64,000 nt of DNA, from the NCBI RefSeq assembly GCF_900142825.1, contig NZ_FRCH01000001.1:1364001-1428000 (forward strand), given 5' to 3'. The position numbers were made by a program, and so were the translations under genes. This DNA comes from Rhodanobacter sp. OK091. Its GTDB lineage: Bacteria > Pseudomonadota > Gammaproteobacteria > Xanthomonadales > Rhodanobacteraceae. The notes under the pieces were generated by a model. That model was not told the origin of the DNA, made no database searches, and saw only the letters and a program-made list of their open reading frames with translations. Shown piece by piece: positions 46,163 to 53,701 of this stretch (positions within the stretch are counted from its first letter, which is position 1; each line of letters starts with the position of its first letter).

Positions 46163-46852
46163 TTAGGTTTCCGCCCACATGCGCACCAGGTTCGCGCGGG
46201 ACTTGCTGATCAGGTCGAAAGCCGGGCTCTTGCCTTCGCGACTGAAAGTCAGACGCTTGGCGTTTTCCATATCCCACAATAACTCCCGTTTCGCAGGATC
46301 GCGTATCTGGCTTTGCACCCAGATGATCGCCGCATCGCGCACACCGCGGGTGACCGGTGTTACGTGATGCAACGTGTTGGCGGGATAGGCAATCGCGGCA
46401 CCCGCCTCAAGCTTGAATTGGCTGCTGATGCCGTTCATGAATACGGTCAATTCGCCGCCATCGTAGCTTCGCGGGTCGGAGAGAAAAATGGTGATGGCAA
46501 TATCGCTACGTACCGCATTGCTCATGCTTCCCATGACCGGCGTATCCACATGGGGACCGTATTCCATGCCTTGCCCATAGCGGTTGAACAATACCGACGT
46601 TGCCGCTGCCGGCAGCAACGCCGTCTGCAATTCCCCGCTACGCATGAAGGCTTCACGCACAATGCGTGCAATCTGCTCATATTCAGGCGCACCCGGCGTC
46701 ACTTGCAGATTCCGCTTCACCTCACGCGCGGACCAGCCAGCCGTGCCGGCTCCATCGATGAAAGAAGCACTCTCCAGTCTGGATTGGATGGCTGCCAGCT
46801 CATCGGGACCCAGAACGGCGGGGACACAGTAAATCAAGGCAGTAACCCTCAT
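46163..46852 (-). CDS. Fe(II)/2-oxoglutarate-dependent PKHD-type hydroxylase
   Basis: This 229-residue dioxygenase has H101 and D103 (in 'YGPHVDTPVM') and a distal His in 'LHHVTPVTRGVRD' with Arg169 in position to bind 2-oxoglutarate. The pattern matches PiuC/YbiX-type PKHD hydroxylases, often found with TonB receptors and iron regulation. The start is the ATG at 46852, since the open frame extends 63 codons upstream without similarity. It is divergent from the TPR-sulfotransferase gene across about 130 bases. A target protein or small molecule is unknown. Confidence 0.9.
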   Translation of the reverse strand: MRVTALIYCVPAVLGPDELAAIQSRLESASFIDGAGTAGWSAREVKRNLQVTPGAPEYEQIARIVREAFMRSGELQTALLPAAATSVLFNRYGQGMEYGPHVDTPVMGSMSNAVRSDIAITIFLSDPRSYDGGELTVFMNGISSQFKLEAGAAIAYPANTLHHVTPVTRGVRDAAIIWVQSQIRDPAKRELLWDMENAKRLTFSREGKSPAFDLISKSRANLVRMWAET

Positions 46853-46985
46853 GAAGTTGCATGACGCCGTCCATGGTAATCGCGCACCCCATGAAGCGGA
46901 ACGTTTGGCGCCATACAGCCATTCTTTACCGTCGAGAACATGCAAGACTGGGCGCCGGTTTCGAGCCATCTGCATCAGGTAATCC

Positions 46986-48548
46986 ATGTCGCCTCCCTCC
47001 CTCTCTCCCGCAGCGCGCCAGTGGCTGAGCGATGCCGGCAAGGCGTTATCCCAAGGGCGCGCGGACTTGGCGGAGCAACCCTTGAAACGCGTGCTGGCCG
47101 AGGCGCCCGGCTTTGCCAGCGCTCAGCTCATGTACGGCATAGCCTGTCAGATGCGTGGCGACAGCATCACCGCTGCCGAGTACATGCGCAAAGCAGCGCA
47201 GCAACGCCCTGATGACCCAAGCATCCTGACGACTCTAGGGGGTGCTCTTTATGATTCTGGCGCAACGGAAGAAGCGTTTGTCTGCTTGCGCCGAGCCACT
47301 GAACTGGCCCCGATGCAGGCATCAAACTGGTACAACCTTGGCAAAGCACTGAAATTGCACTGGCAACTGGACGAGGCTGCGGACGCTTTCCGACGCACAC
47401 TCGATCTGGACGAAAAGCACATCAATGCGCGCAATACGCTCGCCGACATTTTCACGATACGCGGCAACATCCCGGACGCGGTTGCCGAATACCGCAGAGT
47501 ACTGGCCTTGCAACCGGATCAAGCGCATGCCTGGCATGGACTGGCCAATCTGAAAACCGAGTCACTCACCCTGACGGATGCCAAGCAGATCCGTCACATC
47601 CTGCAAAACCAGCGGCCTGCGCCTGACGCACGCGTATTACTCGGCTTCAGCCTGTACAAAGCCTTGGAAGACCAACATGACTACGCCGGCGCTTTTCAGG
47701 CATTGCGCGAGGCCAATGCACTCAAACGCAAGTTGGTGCCATGGGATGCGGCGGCCGAGCATGCGCATGACGAGGACATCATCGAAGCCTTTCGTCACCC
47801 ATTGCCGGCTCCGCTCGACCCGACCCTCGGATCCGAGGCGATTTTCATCGCCAGTCTTCCCCGCTCCGGATCGACATTGGTTGAGCACATCCTTGCCTCG
47901 CATGCGTTGGTGGAAGGCGCCAATGAGATCAGGGACTTGTCGCAGGTTCTCGACGATGAATCGAAACAGCGCGGCAAAAACTTTCCGCACTGGGTGGCCG
48001 ACGCTACAGCGGAGGATTGGGCACGTTTAGGCAAGAACTATCTCGCCCGCACCGCCCGCTGGCGCATCAAGCGCCCTTATTTTACCGACAAGGGGCTGCA
48101 GAACTGGCAATGGGTCGGCGTCGTTCGCGCCATGCTGCCGGGCGCCAAAATCGTCAACTGCCATCGTGATCCGGTCGAGACCTGTTTTGCCTGCTACCGC
48201 CAGTTGTTCAGCGAAGGCATCCACTTCAGCTACGACCTGGACGACCTGGCCAGCTATTACAACGACTACCGGCGCCTAAGCCATTACTGGCAGGAACGTT
48301 ACCCGAGCCACGTGTTCGACCTTTCCTACGAGACGCTGGTACGGGAGCCCGAAACACAGATCCGGCAACTGCTTTCATTCTGCCAACTGCCCTTCGACAC
48401 CGCGTGCCTCTCGCCGCACCAGACGCAACGCGATGTACACAGCACGGCCAGTGCGGCACAAGTACGCCAACCCATTCGAGGCGATACGGCACGCAGTCCG
48501 CGCTATCGGGATTTCCTGCAACCGCTGATCCAACGTCTCGATCACTGA
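46986..48548 (+). CDS. TPR-containing sulfotransferase
   Basis: This 520-residue protein has an N-terminal array of about five tetratricopeptide repeats (10-230; for example 'ASNWYNLGKALKLHWQLDEA') and a C-terminal sulfotransferase domain. The PAPS 5'-phosphosulfate loop is 'FIASLPRSGSTLVEHIL' (near 290) and the 3'-phosphate site contains 'NCHRDPVETCFACYRQLF'. Such proteins transfer sulfate to unknown acceptors, and the TPR part likely binds a protein partner. It is divergent from the hydroxylase and convergent with the TonB receptor, with a strong terminator after it. Base use looks slightly AT-richer than in the flanking genes. Confidence 0.92.
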   Translation: MSPPSLSPAARQWLSDAGKALSQGRADLAEQPLKRVLAEAPGFASAQLMYGIACQMRGDSITAAEYMRKAAQQRPDDPSILTTLGGALYDSGATEEAFVCLRRATELAPMQASNWYNLGKALKLHWQLDEAADAFRRTLDLDEKHINARNTLADIFTIRGNIPDAVAEYRRVLALQPDQAHAWHGLANLKTESLTLTDAKQIRHILQNQRPAPDARVLLGFSLYKALEDQHDYAGAFQALREANALKRKLVPWDAAAEHAHDEDIIEAFRHPLPAPLDPTLGSEAIFIASLPRSGSTLVEHILASHALVEGANEIRDLSQVLDDESKQRGKNFPHWVADATAEDWARLGKNYLARTARWRIKRPYFTDKGLQNWQWVGVVRAMLPGAKIVNCHRDPVETCFACYRQLFSEGIHFSYDLDDLASYYNDYRRLSHYWQERYPSHVFDLSYETLVREPETQIRQLLSFCQLPFDTACLSPHQTQRDVHSTASAAQVRQPIRGDTARSPRYRDFLQPLIQRLDH

Positions 48549-48550
48549 AA

Positions 48551-48586
48551 CGAAAAAGGCCGCCGGATAACCGGCGGCCTTTTTCG
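48551..48586. terminator. Bidirectional intrinsic terminator
   Basis: A 16-bp perfect inverted repeat (CGAAAAAGGCCGCCGG and its mirror) with loop ATAA has A and T runs on the two sides. It lies between the convergent sulfotransferase and TonB-receptor genes and fits both. Confidence 0.95.
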
Positions 48587-48640
48587 TTGCTCCCGTTACC
48601 GGCACCATGGCTGGCACCGGTGAACTGCCAACGGGGATTA

Positions 48641-51600
48641 TTACCACTCGTACTTCGCGGTGAAGTCAAAGTAGCGCGGCGGTTCCGTCGCAACCGCGGT
48701 CTTGTAGATCGGATTGTAGTAAGACGTTGAACCCTGATACTCGACGTAACCGTTGGCGATGCCCGCGTAATTCAACGCATTCTGCTCGTTGAGCACGTTG
48801 TGCACTTCCGCCTGGAGGGTGAGGTGCTTGTTCGCCCATTCCGGCACGTACGTCACGCTCAGGTTGAGCATGTGGGTCCACGGCGTGTGACCACTGGCCC
48901 CCGGAGGAGAGCCTTTGCCGCCATGAGCCACAGGCGAGGTCACGGGCAGGCCCGTCGTGGGATCTATGACAGTGACAGTGACCGTCGAGTTACCGCTCGG
49001 CACACCACCGCAGAAGTGCTGATAAGCACCGCCATACAGATCCGGATCAATCGTGTCGCCATAGCCGCTCAAGCAGATATTCGGCGCACCCGACTGCATG
49101 ATGAAGGTGCCACTGACCATCCACTCCGGCGTAATGGCATACGAGCCGAAGGCCTTGATGGTGTGGCGATGGCTATTGGCCTGCTCACCGTTGGCGAATG
49201 CCATGATGTCGGGGAAGTCCCACGCCGCCGTGGTCGAACCGGACTCACCGCCACTCTTCTGGTTCGTGATCTGCCCCGTACCGGTGTTGGTCGGACCTTC
49301 GCTGCTGCCGTACGACCTGGAGAACAGGTAGTCGACTTTGCCGTACCACTTGCCGTCCCAGCTGTGTTCCAGATAGCTATCCAGGGCGTAGTACTTGCGC
49401 GATGCCTTCGGGAACGTACTGAGGAAATTTGTAAAAACCCCCGTGCCGGTGTTCGGATTCCACGTGGCCAAACCGCAGGGTTGCGGGATGTAGTTGGTCT
49501 TGCCCGGATTGACCAAGGCCCCAACGATGGTGCCACACGCTACGAGGTCGGTGTCATCGATGAGGTTGCCTGCCTTCTCATAGGTCGCCTGCATGCCGAA
49601 TACCAAACCGGTAGAGCCGAGCATCTTCTGGAAGCCCAGCACGTATTCGTCCTGATACGAAGCCTTGAGGTTGGTCGAGGCATAATCCTTGGGATTGCCG
49701 ATAACGCCATTCTCGCCATCCGGCGAGTAGTAGCCTGGCTTCGTCACACCCGGAGCCAGGACCACGGGAAGCGGGGTCAGCCCCGTCGGAACACCATTCG
49801 CACTGATGCCTGTGTAGGTGTAGGTGACTTCACCGTTCACCGTACCAAACGCCGAGTTACGTGCGGCCAAGCCCGCCGGCAACGCCAGGTAATAACGCCC
49901 TGCGTTACCGAAGACCTTCAACGTGCTGTCGCCCGACACGTCCCAACTGAAGCCCAGGCGCGGCGCCCATTGCGGTTTGGTTTCCCGCACGTAGGCAATG
50001 CCGTCGGGGCCGAGGTTGGTGAACTGGTCGTTGCGCAGACCAAGGTCAAGCAGCAGGTTAGGCGTGACCTGCCAGCGGTCTTCCACATACTGTGCCTTTT
50101 GGCGGACAGCCAGCGAGATGTCCGAACCAAACAGACTCTCCGTGACGTAATTGCCGCTAACAGGAGGATTGACGTAAGGCGCGGTGGAGGCGTAAGGCGG
50201 CAAGCCGTTAAAATAATTATATGAACCGCCACCAAGGGTCGTTATACCGTCGTGATCGTCGCGGTACTGCAGGTTGTCGATACCGAACTTGATGTCGTGG
50301 TCGGCCGTGATCTTCCAATCAAGGTCGACGCGCAGGTTGGCGGTCTTGGTTTTGTGATCCGGGTTGCCAATGGTTGTATCAACCAGGTTCGGAATGACAA
50401 CGCCCGGCGGCTGAGTCGCCCCCGTGCCAAAGGACACAGGTGCCGCATTCCCACCGCCAGCCAGGCTGGCGTAATACTGCCCCGTCATCAGGCCGTACGA
50501 CATTTCGAGCGTAAGGGAGTCGGTGATGTACGAGGTGTACTTGAGGATGCCAACGTCAAAGGTGTTCTTGGTCGTCACGCCAGGACCGTAATAGGAGGCT
50601 ACTTTCTGGTTCGTGTAGTCGTAGTTGTAGAAGTTGCTGGTGGTGTCCTGGTCCTTGGTTTGGACGCCCGTGAACTCCAACACGTTGCTGTCGTTGATGT
50701 TCCAGTCCAGCTTGCCATACACCTTGGGCTTGTTTTGAGCCGTCGACTTCCAGTAACCCGACGGCGACGTCACGCCATTGTTCCCTATGCCGTACTGGTT
50801 GCTATCTTTCTGCCATTCGGCAGTCAAGAAGAAGAACAGCTTGTCCTTGATCAGCGGACCGCTTAGGTAGGCGCCGTACACCGTTTCCCAGTCGCTATTC
50901 TGCTTCTTGCCTGTCTGGATATGGCCGTAGCCGGGAGCATAGGCTGTGGTGCCCTGGCTAGGGGCCAGATAAGGCTGAGGAATGCCATTTTCTCCTGGCC
51001 CAAGACCATTGTCCAAAGCACCGACCGGCGTCCGCGGATTGCTGTAATAAACGTTGTCGTAGTTGCTTTCGGCAAAGGCCGGTCGGTAGGACACGTACGC
51101 ACCGGCATGGAACTCGTTGCTGCCGCGCTGGCCGATCTGACTGATCACGCCGCCGGTCGAACGACCGTATTCAGGACCATAACCGGAGGTGATGGTCTGC
51201 TGCTCGGCAATGGCGAAGTACGGCAGCGCAATGCCGCCCGAGCCACCGATCGGATCGGTGGTGTTGAAACCGTTGAGGTAATAGGCGTTTTCGACGACGC
51301 TGTTGCCGCCCATGGAAACCAGCGGCGTACCGGTCGGTCCCTGACCGAGGTTGGAGGCACCCGAGTTCACGCCAGGAGCCAGCAGCGCAATCGCTTCAGC
51401 GCTGTGAGCCAGCGGCAGAGTCTTCAATTGCTGCGCGGTGATCACCGAAGTCTGGCGGGTGGAGGACACGTCGATCGCAGGCAGCGCGTTGGCCGTGACC
51501 GTGACGCCGGAGAGGCTCTGCACGTTCTTGCTGGCCTCGGCAGCGGCAAACGCCACCGCCGTGCCGCCGGCCACGGTCACCTGCACATGCTCGTGCGTAG

Positions 51601-51889
51601 CCACCACGCTGCCGTTCTGCACCAGTGACACGGTGTAGTCGCCCACCGGCAACTTGTTGGCGCTATAGCGGCCATCGCTGCCGACCGCTACTTCGCGGGT
51701 CAGGCCAGTCTGGCTGCTAACGACGCGAACCGTCTCGCCAGACGACACCGGCGCAGTACCAAACACGGAACCGGTGGTGGCCTGAGCCAATACCTGTCCA
51801 GACACACCGAATCCCATCGCGACTGCAACGGCCAGCGCGCTATGACGTAAGTACGCTTTTTTAACATGCGTCAACTTTTTGCTGTTCAT
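48641..51889 (-). CDS. Oar-like TonB-dependent receptor with carboxypeptidase-like N-terminal domain
   Basis: This 1082-residue outer-membrane protein has a signal peptide (residues 1-36, ending 'GQVLAQA') and a beta-sandwich carboxypeptidase-regulatory-like domain (about 38-130). A plug domain (about 135-260, 'VITAQQLKTLPLAHSAEAIA') and a large beta-barrel ending in an aromatic residue ('FDFTAKYEW') follow. Receptors of this Oar class take up unknown large ligands. It faces the TPR-sulfotransferase gene across a bidirectional terminator. Its upstream region is long and AT-rich with an inverted repeat. Confidence 0.95.
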   Translation of the reverse strand: MNSKKLTHVKKAYLRHSALAVAVAMGFGVSGQVLAQATTGSVFGTAPVSSGETVRVVSSQTGLTREVAVGSDGRYSANKLPVGDYTVSLVQNGSVVATHEHVQVTVAGGTAVAFAAAEASKNVQSLSGVTVTANALPAIDVSSTRQTSVITAQQLKTLPLAHSAEAIALLAPGVNSGASNLGQGPTGTPLVSMGGNSVVENAYYLNGFNTTDPIGGSGGIALPYFAIAEQQTITSGYGPEYGRSTGGVISQIGQRGSNEFHAGAYVSYRPAFAESNYDNVYYSNPRTPVGALDNGLGPGENGIPQPYLAPSQGTTAYAPGYGHIQTGKKQNSDWETVYGAYLSGPLIKDKLFFFLTAEWQKDSNQYGIGNNGVTSPSGYWKSTAQNKPKVYGKLDWNINDSNVLEFTGVQTKDQDTTSNFYNYDYTNQKVASYYGPGVTTKNTFDVGILKYTSYITDSLTLEMSYGLMTGQYYASLAGGGNAAPVSFGTGATQPPGVVIPNLVDTTIGNPDHKTKTANLRVDLDWKITADHDIKFGIDNLQYRDDHDGITTLGGGSYNYFNGLPPYASTAPYVNPPVSGNYVTESLFGSDISLAVRQKAQYVEDRWQVTPNLLLDLGLRNDQFTNLGPDGIAYVRETKPQWAPRLGFSWDVSGDSTLKVFGNAGRYYLALPAGLAARNSAFGTVNGEVTYTYTGISANGVPTGLTPLPVVLAPGVTKPGYYSPDGENGVIGNPKDYASTNLKASYQDEYVLGFQKMLGSTGLVFGMQATYEKAGNLIDDTDLVACGTIVGALVNPGKTNYIPQPCGLATWNPNTGTGVFTNFLSTFPKASRKYYALDSYLEHSWDGKWYGKVDYLFSRSYGSSEGPTNTGTGQITNQKSGGESGSTTAAWDFPDIMAFANGEQANSHRHTIKAFGSYAITPEWMVSGTFIMQSGAPNICLSGYGDTIDPDLYGGAYQHFCGGVPSGNSTVTVTVIDPTTGLPVTSPVAHGGKGSPPGASGHTPWTHMLNLSVTYVPEWANKHLTLQAEVHNVLNEQNALNYAGIANGYVEYQGSTSYYNPIYKTAVATEPPRYFDFTAKYEW

Positions 51890-52354
51890 TAGATTAGGTT
51901 CCCCAACGGTCCGAACTTCGGAAAGAATTGAATAAATAACCGCACCCCGATACGGCTTGTAACTGATGCAGCCAATCCAAATTGGCTGTCCGCTAGAAAA
52001 CGCGCTTTCATAAACGTGTTAGCAATTTGTTCAGCAGGGACACTAAGAGTTTCGATAACAAAAAGTCAACAGCACCATACTGCGAAATAAACGCACGTTA
52101 TTACGTATGACAAGGTGTTTAGAATTAATCGAAATATGTTGCGTCAGCTATGCCTTGAAACCTGTTTTTTCATCGTATGCAAGGCAATGAGTATTCAATT
52201 ACCAGCGCATTTTCTTGCAGAGACAAGCGTGCCGACATGGCCTGCCTCGCTGCTTTCGCGGCAGACGCGCAGACGCTTACGCTGAAGGCTAAGGTTATAC
52301 CGTCGTGTCGCGAGAAGATTCGAGTCGAATGGCATCGCTCCGACATCCCGCTGT
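51890..52354 (-). promoter_or_regulatory. AT-rich upstream region of the TonB receptor
   Basis: These 465 bases lie between the receptor gene and the secreted ChaN-like gene, both on the minus strand. They are clearly AT-richer than their surroundings and hold no recognisable gene. An inverted repeat CAGCCAAT-CCAA-ATTGGCTG lies at 51969-51988, about 80 bases before the receptor start, and a smaller ACGT-TATT-ACGT dyad lies at 52095-52106. These may be operator sites. Short open frames (for example 52177-52377) lack support. Confidence 0.5.
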
Positions 52355-53701
52355 TCAAGGTCCGTTTATCTGTATGACTTGCTCGGACAGGGTTTTGCCG
52401 ACGGTATTCCACGCGCGCAATCGGTAGCGGCCTGGGCGCAGGTAGAGCTTGCTGCTGGAATACGGCTCAGTGAATGCATAGCAGTCCGCCGCTATGGCGT
52501 CATCTGACTCCCCGATGTAGCGGGCGCTTATCACGCAGGGAACCTGTGTCCTGCAAAGATTGGTATCAATGGGAAATGGCTGGCGTTGCCCACCCAAGGG
52601 CAGCCACTTTGGGCGTTGCAGATTATTGAGCGCGATCAGCGAATTCACGACGAGACGCGTCGGGGCGTGGACGTAGTCTGAAAACGTGCCTCTTACGCTA
52701 TCGCCGAAAGTTTTCACATCGAGCGCGATCGGCAGGAGCACATCGAGGTCATAGAGCTTCGGCAACGCACTCCATGGCTTGCCGGTGATGCGGTTGACCA
52801 ACACCTCGGCTGACTGCGCAGGAAACCGGTGCATCAGCACATGATAGTCATCGGGCGTATCCGGGCCGGATTCAAGGAACTCGGTCTGGTCGATCGACAG
52901 CGGGTCGAAGCCCGTCAACTTTGCCAGCTTCATCGCCATTGGCTCGATGTCGTTGAGACGCCCGCTGGCCTTGTCGATGTGCGCATAGCCGGTATGCACG
53001 AACAGACGCGCGTGGGGGTCGCTGGCAAACACTTTCCGGAACAGGGTCTCGGCCTGCGCGGCATCGCGTGCTTGCGGGTCGAGGATGGCATTGTCGTAGG
53101 GCACGAGAATGAAGCCCAACCGTATCGCTTCGCGTACGATCTCGCCGTAAACGGGCTCTTGCAGGTATTCGGAACCGCTGGTCTGGACCGGGTAGCCCCG
53201 ACGCATCAGCCCGGGATCGTTCCCGCCCAATGCCTCGGCCGCAAAGTAGGTGAATCCAAGCGCCCGCAAGCGCGGCAGCAGAGCCAGAGTGAGCTCGCGC
53301 GTATGTGCGTTGTGGTGAGCCTCGTTGATCATCACGATACGACGATCGGCGGCGAGTTCCGTGATGACATCGACCGCGGAGGCAGCTTTCCATTCATCGT
53401 GATCGGGCAGAACCAGACCAGGCGGCGGCTCGCTCCTGAGCGGAAAACCCAACACGGCCTGGTTGTACAGCCCCAGTTCGTTCAACGAGAACGACCGGAA
53501 CTGTCCGGCCACCACCTGATCCGACGCGGGAAGATGCGGCACGGCCCGCACGAGATACTGGTAACGGGCGAGCTGGTTGGGCTGTCGCCGCATCGCCTGG
53601 AACAAGTCGAGCTCGGGCTGATCGTACGATTGCGCAATCGCTCCTGTCGAAATCAGTAATGCCAATAGACATACAGGCAAGCTGAAAAATCTTTTCGCCA
53701 T
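52355..53701 (-). CDS. Secreted ChaN/EreA-like superfamily protein
   Basis: This 448-residue protein has a signal peptide (residues 1-23). A region with 'MINEAHHNAHTRELTLALLP' and 'GFTYFAAEALGG' resembles the ChaN/EreA-like superfamily. ChaN is an iron-regulated heme-binding lipoprotein; EreA hydrolyses macrolides. His and Glu positions of the shared motif (ExxH-type) are present. The C-terminal 100 residues are Cys-containing and unassigned. The frame's upstream 13 codons are not used because the signal starts at the ATG at 53701. It is upstream of the TonB receptor, on the same strand. Confidence 0.75.
   Translation of the reverse strand: MAKRFFSLPVCLLALLISTGAIAQSYDQPELDLFQAMRRQPNQLARYQYLVRAVPHLPASDQVVAGQFRSFSLNELGLYNQAVLGFPLRSEPPPGLVLPDHDEWKAASAVDVITELAADRRIVMINEAHHNAHTRELTLALLPRLRALGFTYFAAEALGGNDPGLMRRGYPVQTSGSEYLQEPVYGEIVREAIRLGFILVPYDNAILDPQARDAAQAETLFRKVFASDPHARLFVHTGYAHIDKASGRLNDIEPMAMKLAKLTGFDPLSIDQTEFLESGPDTPDDYHVLMHRFPAQSAEVLVNRITGKPWSALPKLYDLDVLLPIALDVKTFGDSVRGTFSDYVHAPTRLVVNSLIALNNLQRPKWLPLGGQRQPFPIDTNLCRTQVPCVISARYIGESDDAIAADCYAFTEPYSSSKLYLRPGRYRLRAWNTVGKTLSEQVIQINGP

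Follow-up and report, generated by a model that had tools for sequence, protein, structure and literature searches.

Virtually the only case of bacterial protein sulfation known to us is RaxST of Xanthomonas. This tyrosine sulfotransferase acts before export, is linked to type I secretion genes, and has been modelled as sulfating an exported peptide (RaxST/RaxX; PMC4216712). A sulfotransferase and a TonB-dependent transporter also occur together in methanobactin clusters, where MbnS and MbnT share one operon (PMC3621798); MbnS belongs to PF00685, and MbnA/MbnB are encoded alongside it, in most cases with MATE exporters as well. In Pseudomonas, piuC, which encodes a PKHD-type hydroxylase of the same family as YbiX, adjoins the siderophore receptor gene piuA, a TonB-dependent receptor (TBDR) gene (PMC11878004). 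Each of these systems partly resembles a locus in a 64,000-nucleotide stretch of a 4.4-Mb Rhodanobacter genome (hereafter the window; G000:C2:1364001-1428000), where a TPR-sulfotransferase gene lies beside a TBDR gene. Unlike RaxST, the window enzyme is partnered by a TonB receptor, and neither a peptide precursor nor type I secretion genes were seen by the sulfotransferase in the locus. Unlike the methanobactin operons, the locus showed no MbnA/MbnB or MATE exporter neighbours when its genes were read. The window PKHD differs from PiuC in being a divergent paralogue without a Fur box, and it lies near an Oar-like barrel rather than a Fur-regulated siderophore receptor.

The locus has four adjacent genes, each found at or near the position assigned to it by an earlier, sequence-only reading of the DNA. 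They encode a PKHD-type Fe(II)/2-oxoglutarate hydroxylase (PiuC/YbiX family; 46163-46852, minus strand), a TPR-sulfotransferase without an evident signal peptide (46986-48548, plus strand), an Oar-like TBDR (48641-51889, minus strand) and a putative secreted ChaN/Tiki-like protein (52355-53701, minus strand). As that reading had noticed, they are AT-richer than their flanks (57.8-59.7% GC versus mostly 64-68% for flanking genes). The low-GC stretch has ~54-60% GC, compared with 63-68% in the surrounding DNA. Its lowest GC is in the intergenic region upstream of the TBDR gene (51890-52354), and the dip extends into the next gene, which encodes AMP nucleosidase (60.9%). A glutaredoxin-rhodanese gene borders the site on one side and the AMP nucleosidase gene on the other. 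This arrangement is retained in many relatives, among which the contents of the site vary (one to three TBDRs and one or two TPR-sulfotransferases). The four genes are not an operon, because the PKHD and sulfotransferase genes diverge (from 46853-46985) and the sulfotransferase and TBDR genes converge on a terminator-like repeat; the intergenic gaps are 92-465 bp. The repeat (48549-48588) is perfect and inverted, with 18-bp arms, a 4-nt loop and T runs both ways, and is probably a two-way terminator common to the convergent genes. Comparable inverted repeats are present in most other convergent sulfotransferase-TBDR pairs. Consensus scans for promoters and terminators gave no excess over shuffled sequences and did not pick up this palindrome.

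The conserved core of the locus is a two-gene unit of TPR-sulfotransferase and TBDR. We sampled one high-scoring TPR-sulfotransferase from each of 40 genomes of the bacterial family, and 27 of the 40 loci had a TBDR within 4 kb. The TBDR was directly adjacent, no more than 600 bp away, in 19 loci and 1.1 kb away in 1; in 7 further loci it lay ~3.5 kb away, inside a multi-sulfotransferase cluster. Outside the family, a TBDR was found 34-160 bp from the TPR-sulfotransferase in 18 of 20 loci, a figure valid for high-scoring relatives only. These loci came from alpha- and other gammaproteobacteria, judged by same-phylum or same-class placement, and a Pfam check of the 18 TBDRs found Plug in all and a barrel domain in 17. 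Random control loci, largely from the same genomes, had a TBDR in 1 of 40. The contrast between sulfotransferase loci and controls is large; the exact probabilities for adjacency (Fisher P = 3e-9 in the family, 19/40, and 4e-6 in other families, 18/20) should not be leaned on, because loci were chosen by score, genera and families are shared, and detection in the controls relied on home-made profiles. In the window's own genome, only 41 Plug domains were found, yet four of the six TPR-sulfotransferases lie beside a TBDR (the window pair, L118, L128 and L129).

All four relative orientations of the two genes occur, with gaps of 34-253 bp, so it is proximity itself that has been kept. Pairs in the family set were convergent in 23 cases and tandem with the TBDR first in 13 (including L204, a duplicate of the window pair). 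The partner TBDRs come from two barrel families (OMP_b-brl_4 and PF00593), and neither PKHD nor ChaN-like genes are among the recurrent neighbours of the pairs. This is consistent with the loci having the receptor in common, and not a single ligand. The linkage in relatives expected for all four genes holds for the sulfotransferase and TBDR, which are adjacent across Proteobacteria, and fails for the ChaN-like gene. The adjacency suggests that bacteria sulfate the receptor or its cargo. The components were already known; what is new, as far as we found, is their pairing, for which a search of open-access papers gave no description (an absence that is not proof).

The sulfotransferase joins a TPR array (residues ~20-245) to a Sulfotransfer_3 domain (Pfam E = 3.6e-39; residues 286-471) with the P-loop PRSGSTL at 292-298. 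A 14-sequence profile of the catalytic domain, compared with the PDB, matched protein-tyrosine sulfotransferases best (8w5z, 6e-16; TPST1, 1e-14; TPST2, 3e-10); cytosolic sulfotransferases all ranked lower, as did most polyketide sulfotransferases. On this profile evidence, the domain is nearest to the animal enzymes TPST1 and TPST2 (PDB 8w5z, 5wri and 3ap1), with which it aligns at the PRSGxTL loop, the Glu of the GEE motif, the Lys of NKD and a C-terminal QV(R/K)xP. The PAPS-binding P-loop hardly varies, and nor do Glu314 and Lys369, whose aligned counterparts are catalytic in TPST. The window enzyme differs in being bacterial and in having the N-terminal TPR array, and its protein-tyrosine sulfation is only predicted. 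With an APS kinase gene in its genome, the bacterium can make PAPS. AlphaFold, run with six near-identical sequences, gave high pLDDT for the TPR helices and values below 50 for the catalytic part. TPR arrays typically bind polypeptides. O-GlcNAc transferase (OGT), whose TPRs were among the PDB matches, likewise fuses a TPR array to a protein-modifying catalytic domain, and its TPRs hold extended polypeptides; the catalytic domain is a different one, and the comparison is an analogy of working mode, not of family membership.

The partner receptor of the sulfotransferase is Oar-like, with a CarboxypepD_reg-like N-terminus, a Plug (2.6e-6) and a large OMP_b-brl_4 barrel (3.3e-30). The last two exceed their Pfam cut-offs; the carboxypeptidase-like domain ascribed to this protein from sequence has a low E value (1.4e-5) but scores 25.8 bits, under the 32.3-bit cut-off. 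Within the bacterial family, 35 Oar-like TBDRs are paired with a TPR-sulfotransferase. The two partners also co-vary. Mirror-tree comparison of sulfotransferase and TBDR distances gave r = 0.74 (0 of 5000 permutations as high), with a partial r of 0.59 after control for species by the flanking glutaredoxin gene (17 pairs; 6 of 10,000 permutations). For each of two paralogous pairs in the window's own genome, one Dyella genome has a counterpart pair, at sulfotransferase/TBDR identities of 82/79% and 64/69%, versus 28/41% for cross-pairs. Together with adjacency across Proteobacteria, this co-variation supports the functional link between sulfotransferase and receptor that the sequence-only reading had proposed.

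The PKHD is an optional third member of the unit. It scores above the curated cut-off of its family (NCBIfam NF003974, PRK05467; E = 7.7e-72, 241.4 bits versus a 143-bit cut-off), it matches PiuC and Sbal_3634 in the PDB at E ~1e-37, and the HxD...H iron ligands and 2-oxoglutarate-binding Arg can be read in its sequence (GPHVDT ... TLHHVTPVTRG). The reading frame is open further upstream, and family homology begins at the ATG at 46852. A PKHD lies beside the sulfotransferase only in the window's own genome, in one congener (G093) and in Dyella; it occurs in 0 of 60 sampled sulfotransferase loci. Conversely, no sulfotransferase or TBDR genes were present near PKHDs of the same type in the examined flanks of L116, L117, L121, L122, L125 and L235-L241. 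A TPR-Asp/Asn beta-hydroxylase, in turn, was found in 9 of 60 sulfotransferase loci versus 0 of 40 controls, and also at L129 in the window's own genome. A hydroxylase, a TPR-sulfotransferase and a TBDR therefore recur together, with differing hydroxylases. The proposal that hydroxylation is joined with sulfation and a receptor is partly vindicated by this recurrence, with the amendment that the 2-oxoglutarate hydroxylase is usually of the TPR-Asp/Asn type and not a PKHD.

Two further arrangements involve these hydroxylases. At two places in the window's own genome (L224:3571-5426, on G000:C5, and G000:C2:1982378-1983600), an Asp/Asn hydroxylase gene and a short sulfotransferase gene are immediate neighbours, possibly a hydroxylate-then-sulfate pair; at L224 there is no TBDR immediately beside the two genes. 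In other genomes, a conserved cluster holds a TBDR, two or three TPR-sulfotransferases and a TPR-Asp/Asn hydroxylase (L161, L166, L169-L172 and L242), with an additional short sulfotransferase at L166.

The gene at 52355-53701 is a bystander; it stays with the genus, unlike the other three. Of the names proposed for the four proteins, those of the PKHD, sulfotransferase and TBDR stand. ChaN is a weak match (PF04187; E = 0.041, 14.3 bits versus a 27.7-bit cut-off), and for erythromycin esterase (EreA) there was no Pfam match at E up to 10. The gene is adjacent only in the window's own genome and G093; in other genomes it lies at different sites or is absent. Members of this ChaN-like family occur in several copies per genome, with nine matching stretches in the window's own genome, and G116:C1:641892-644763 carries tandem copies, one with an in-frame TAA.

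The flanking genes share 92-97% identity with those of G093 and 71-90% with those of Dyella. The trio shows the opposite pattern: identity to G093 is 70% for the PKHD, 65% for the sulfotransferase and 54% for the TBDR, and identity to Dyella is 82-93%, 80-87% and 66-76%, respectively. Because the trio is Dyella-like while its flanks follow the genus, the three genes were probably exchanged together horizontally. The ChaN-like protein and its G093 counterpart share 77% identity, and there is no such protein beside the Dyella copies of the trio; the simplest reading of these comparisons is that its gene was not co-transferred. The lower GC of the trio fits joint exchange, though the ChaN-like gene is equally AT-rich.

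Our preferred reading, to which we give a probability of roughly 0.4, is that the TPR-tethered enzyme sulfates the unexported chain of the adjacent receptor in the cytoplasm. We infer that the receptor itself is the substrate, that tyrosine is the residue and that the step is cytoplasmic. The two genes would form a receptor-modification unit, in which a TPST-like enzyme acts on the product of the neighbouring TBDR gene. The TPR superhelix would grip the extended receptor chain before export, and the C-terminal domain would move sulfate from PAPS onto tyrosines (or other hydroxyls) of future surface loops, altering their charge and ligand binding once the receptor is exported. Where a lineage adds a 2-oxoglutarate hydroxylase to the unit (the PKHD in this locus, a TPR-Asp/Asn type in others), this enzyme may act on the same chain. 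We favour this reading because the sulfotransferase is a constant partner of receptors whose barrel family varies, and because OGT TPRs hold extended polypeptides. Several observations count against it. Neither Tyr nor acidic-Tyr motifs are enriched in TBDRs linked to a sulfotransferase, compared with unlinked TBDRs (Tyr content 5.9% versus 6.0%, a rough comparison, since some own-genome receptors occur more than once among the unlinked), and the TBDR alignment has no linkage-specific Tyr column beyond clade membership. In the window's own genome, most TBDRs lack a sulfotransferase partner; of the family TPR-sulfotransferases sampled, about a third have no TBDR in the flanks examined; and we know of no sulfated TBDR. 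Tyr columns 338 and 472 were considered as marks of linkage and rejected; they are commoner in linked TBDRs but follow clades.

A close rival, only slightly less probable in our view, is that the enzyme sulfates a small molecule or peptide, which is secreted and then re-imported through the adjoining TBDR. It has a described precedent in the MbnS-MbnT operons and agrees with the modelled action of RaxST on an exported peptide; a halotolerance survey also lists clusters of sulfotransferases and Asp-hydroxylases whose gene numbers adjoin those of lasso-peptide genes (PMC10040529). The window locus, with gaps of 92-465 bp, lacks genes for a precursor, for export and for any other biosynthetic step, and the barrel family differs among partner TBDRs. 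Nothing separates sulfation of the receptor from sulfation of its ligand decisively, because linked TBDRs are neither Tyr-richer nor marked by a linkage-specific Tyr. We consider it improbable that the target is a cell-surface glycan or lipid contacted or imported by the TBDR: one own-genome pair (L128:6710-14170, on G000:C2) adjoins apparent aminosugar-catabolism genes, of which N-termini were read, but the catalytic domain is closer to protein-tyrosine than to heparan or aryl sulfotransferases, TPR arrays typically bind polypeptides, and recurring glycan-synthesis genes were not seen at the loci read. Adjacency might also have arisen without functional coupling, through horizontal transfer or because the interval from the glutaredoxin-rhodanese gene to the AMP nucleosidase gene is a hotspot; the variable contents of the site and the probable exchange with Dyella speak for this reading. 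It is very improbable, as the pairing recurs at unrelated sites and in other bacterial families with different TBDR families, and the partners co-vary. The scheme first proposed, in which four iron-regulated genes form one module that hydroxylates, sulfates and imports, is scarcely credible now. The piuC-piuA neighbourhood and the identical four-gene order in G093 speak for it; synteny largely refutes it, with the ChaN-like gene linked in one congener only and of different ancestry, and the PKHD confined to the three settings named above. Nor does iron regulation find support: no Fur box was matched in 51890-52354 or 46853-46985, a 19-mer search allowing up to three mismatches gave 0 matches in the whole window, and a 13-mer search gave one, intragenic, fewer than expected by chance.

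We think it rather unlikely, on present evidence, that TBDRs across Proteobacteria are sulfated, and sometimes hydroxylated, by dedicated TPR-guided enzymes encoded alongside them, a modification previously undescribed. If the phylum-wide pairing is real, it provides a large and testable set of candidate sulfation substrates, and possibly a new layer of control on entry through the outer membrane.

Some copies of these genes look damaged. At L126:11402-11695, a 97-amino acid TPR-sulfotransferase remnant lies between two TBDRs, where one of two tandem pairs is apparently decaying. At L148:1708-4871, a TBDR lies beside TPR-sulfotransferases split into two ORFs, a possible pseudogene or sequencing error.
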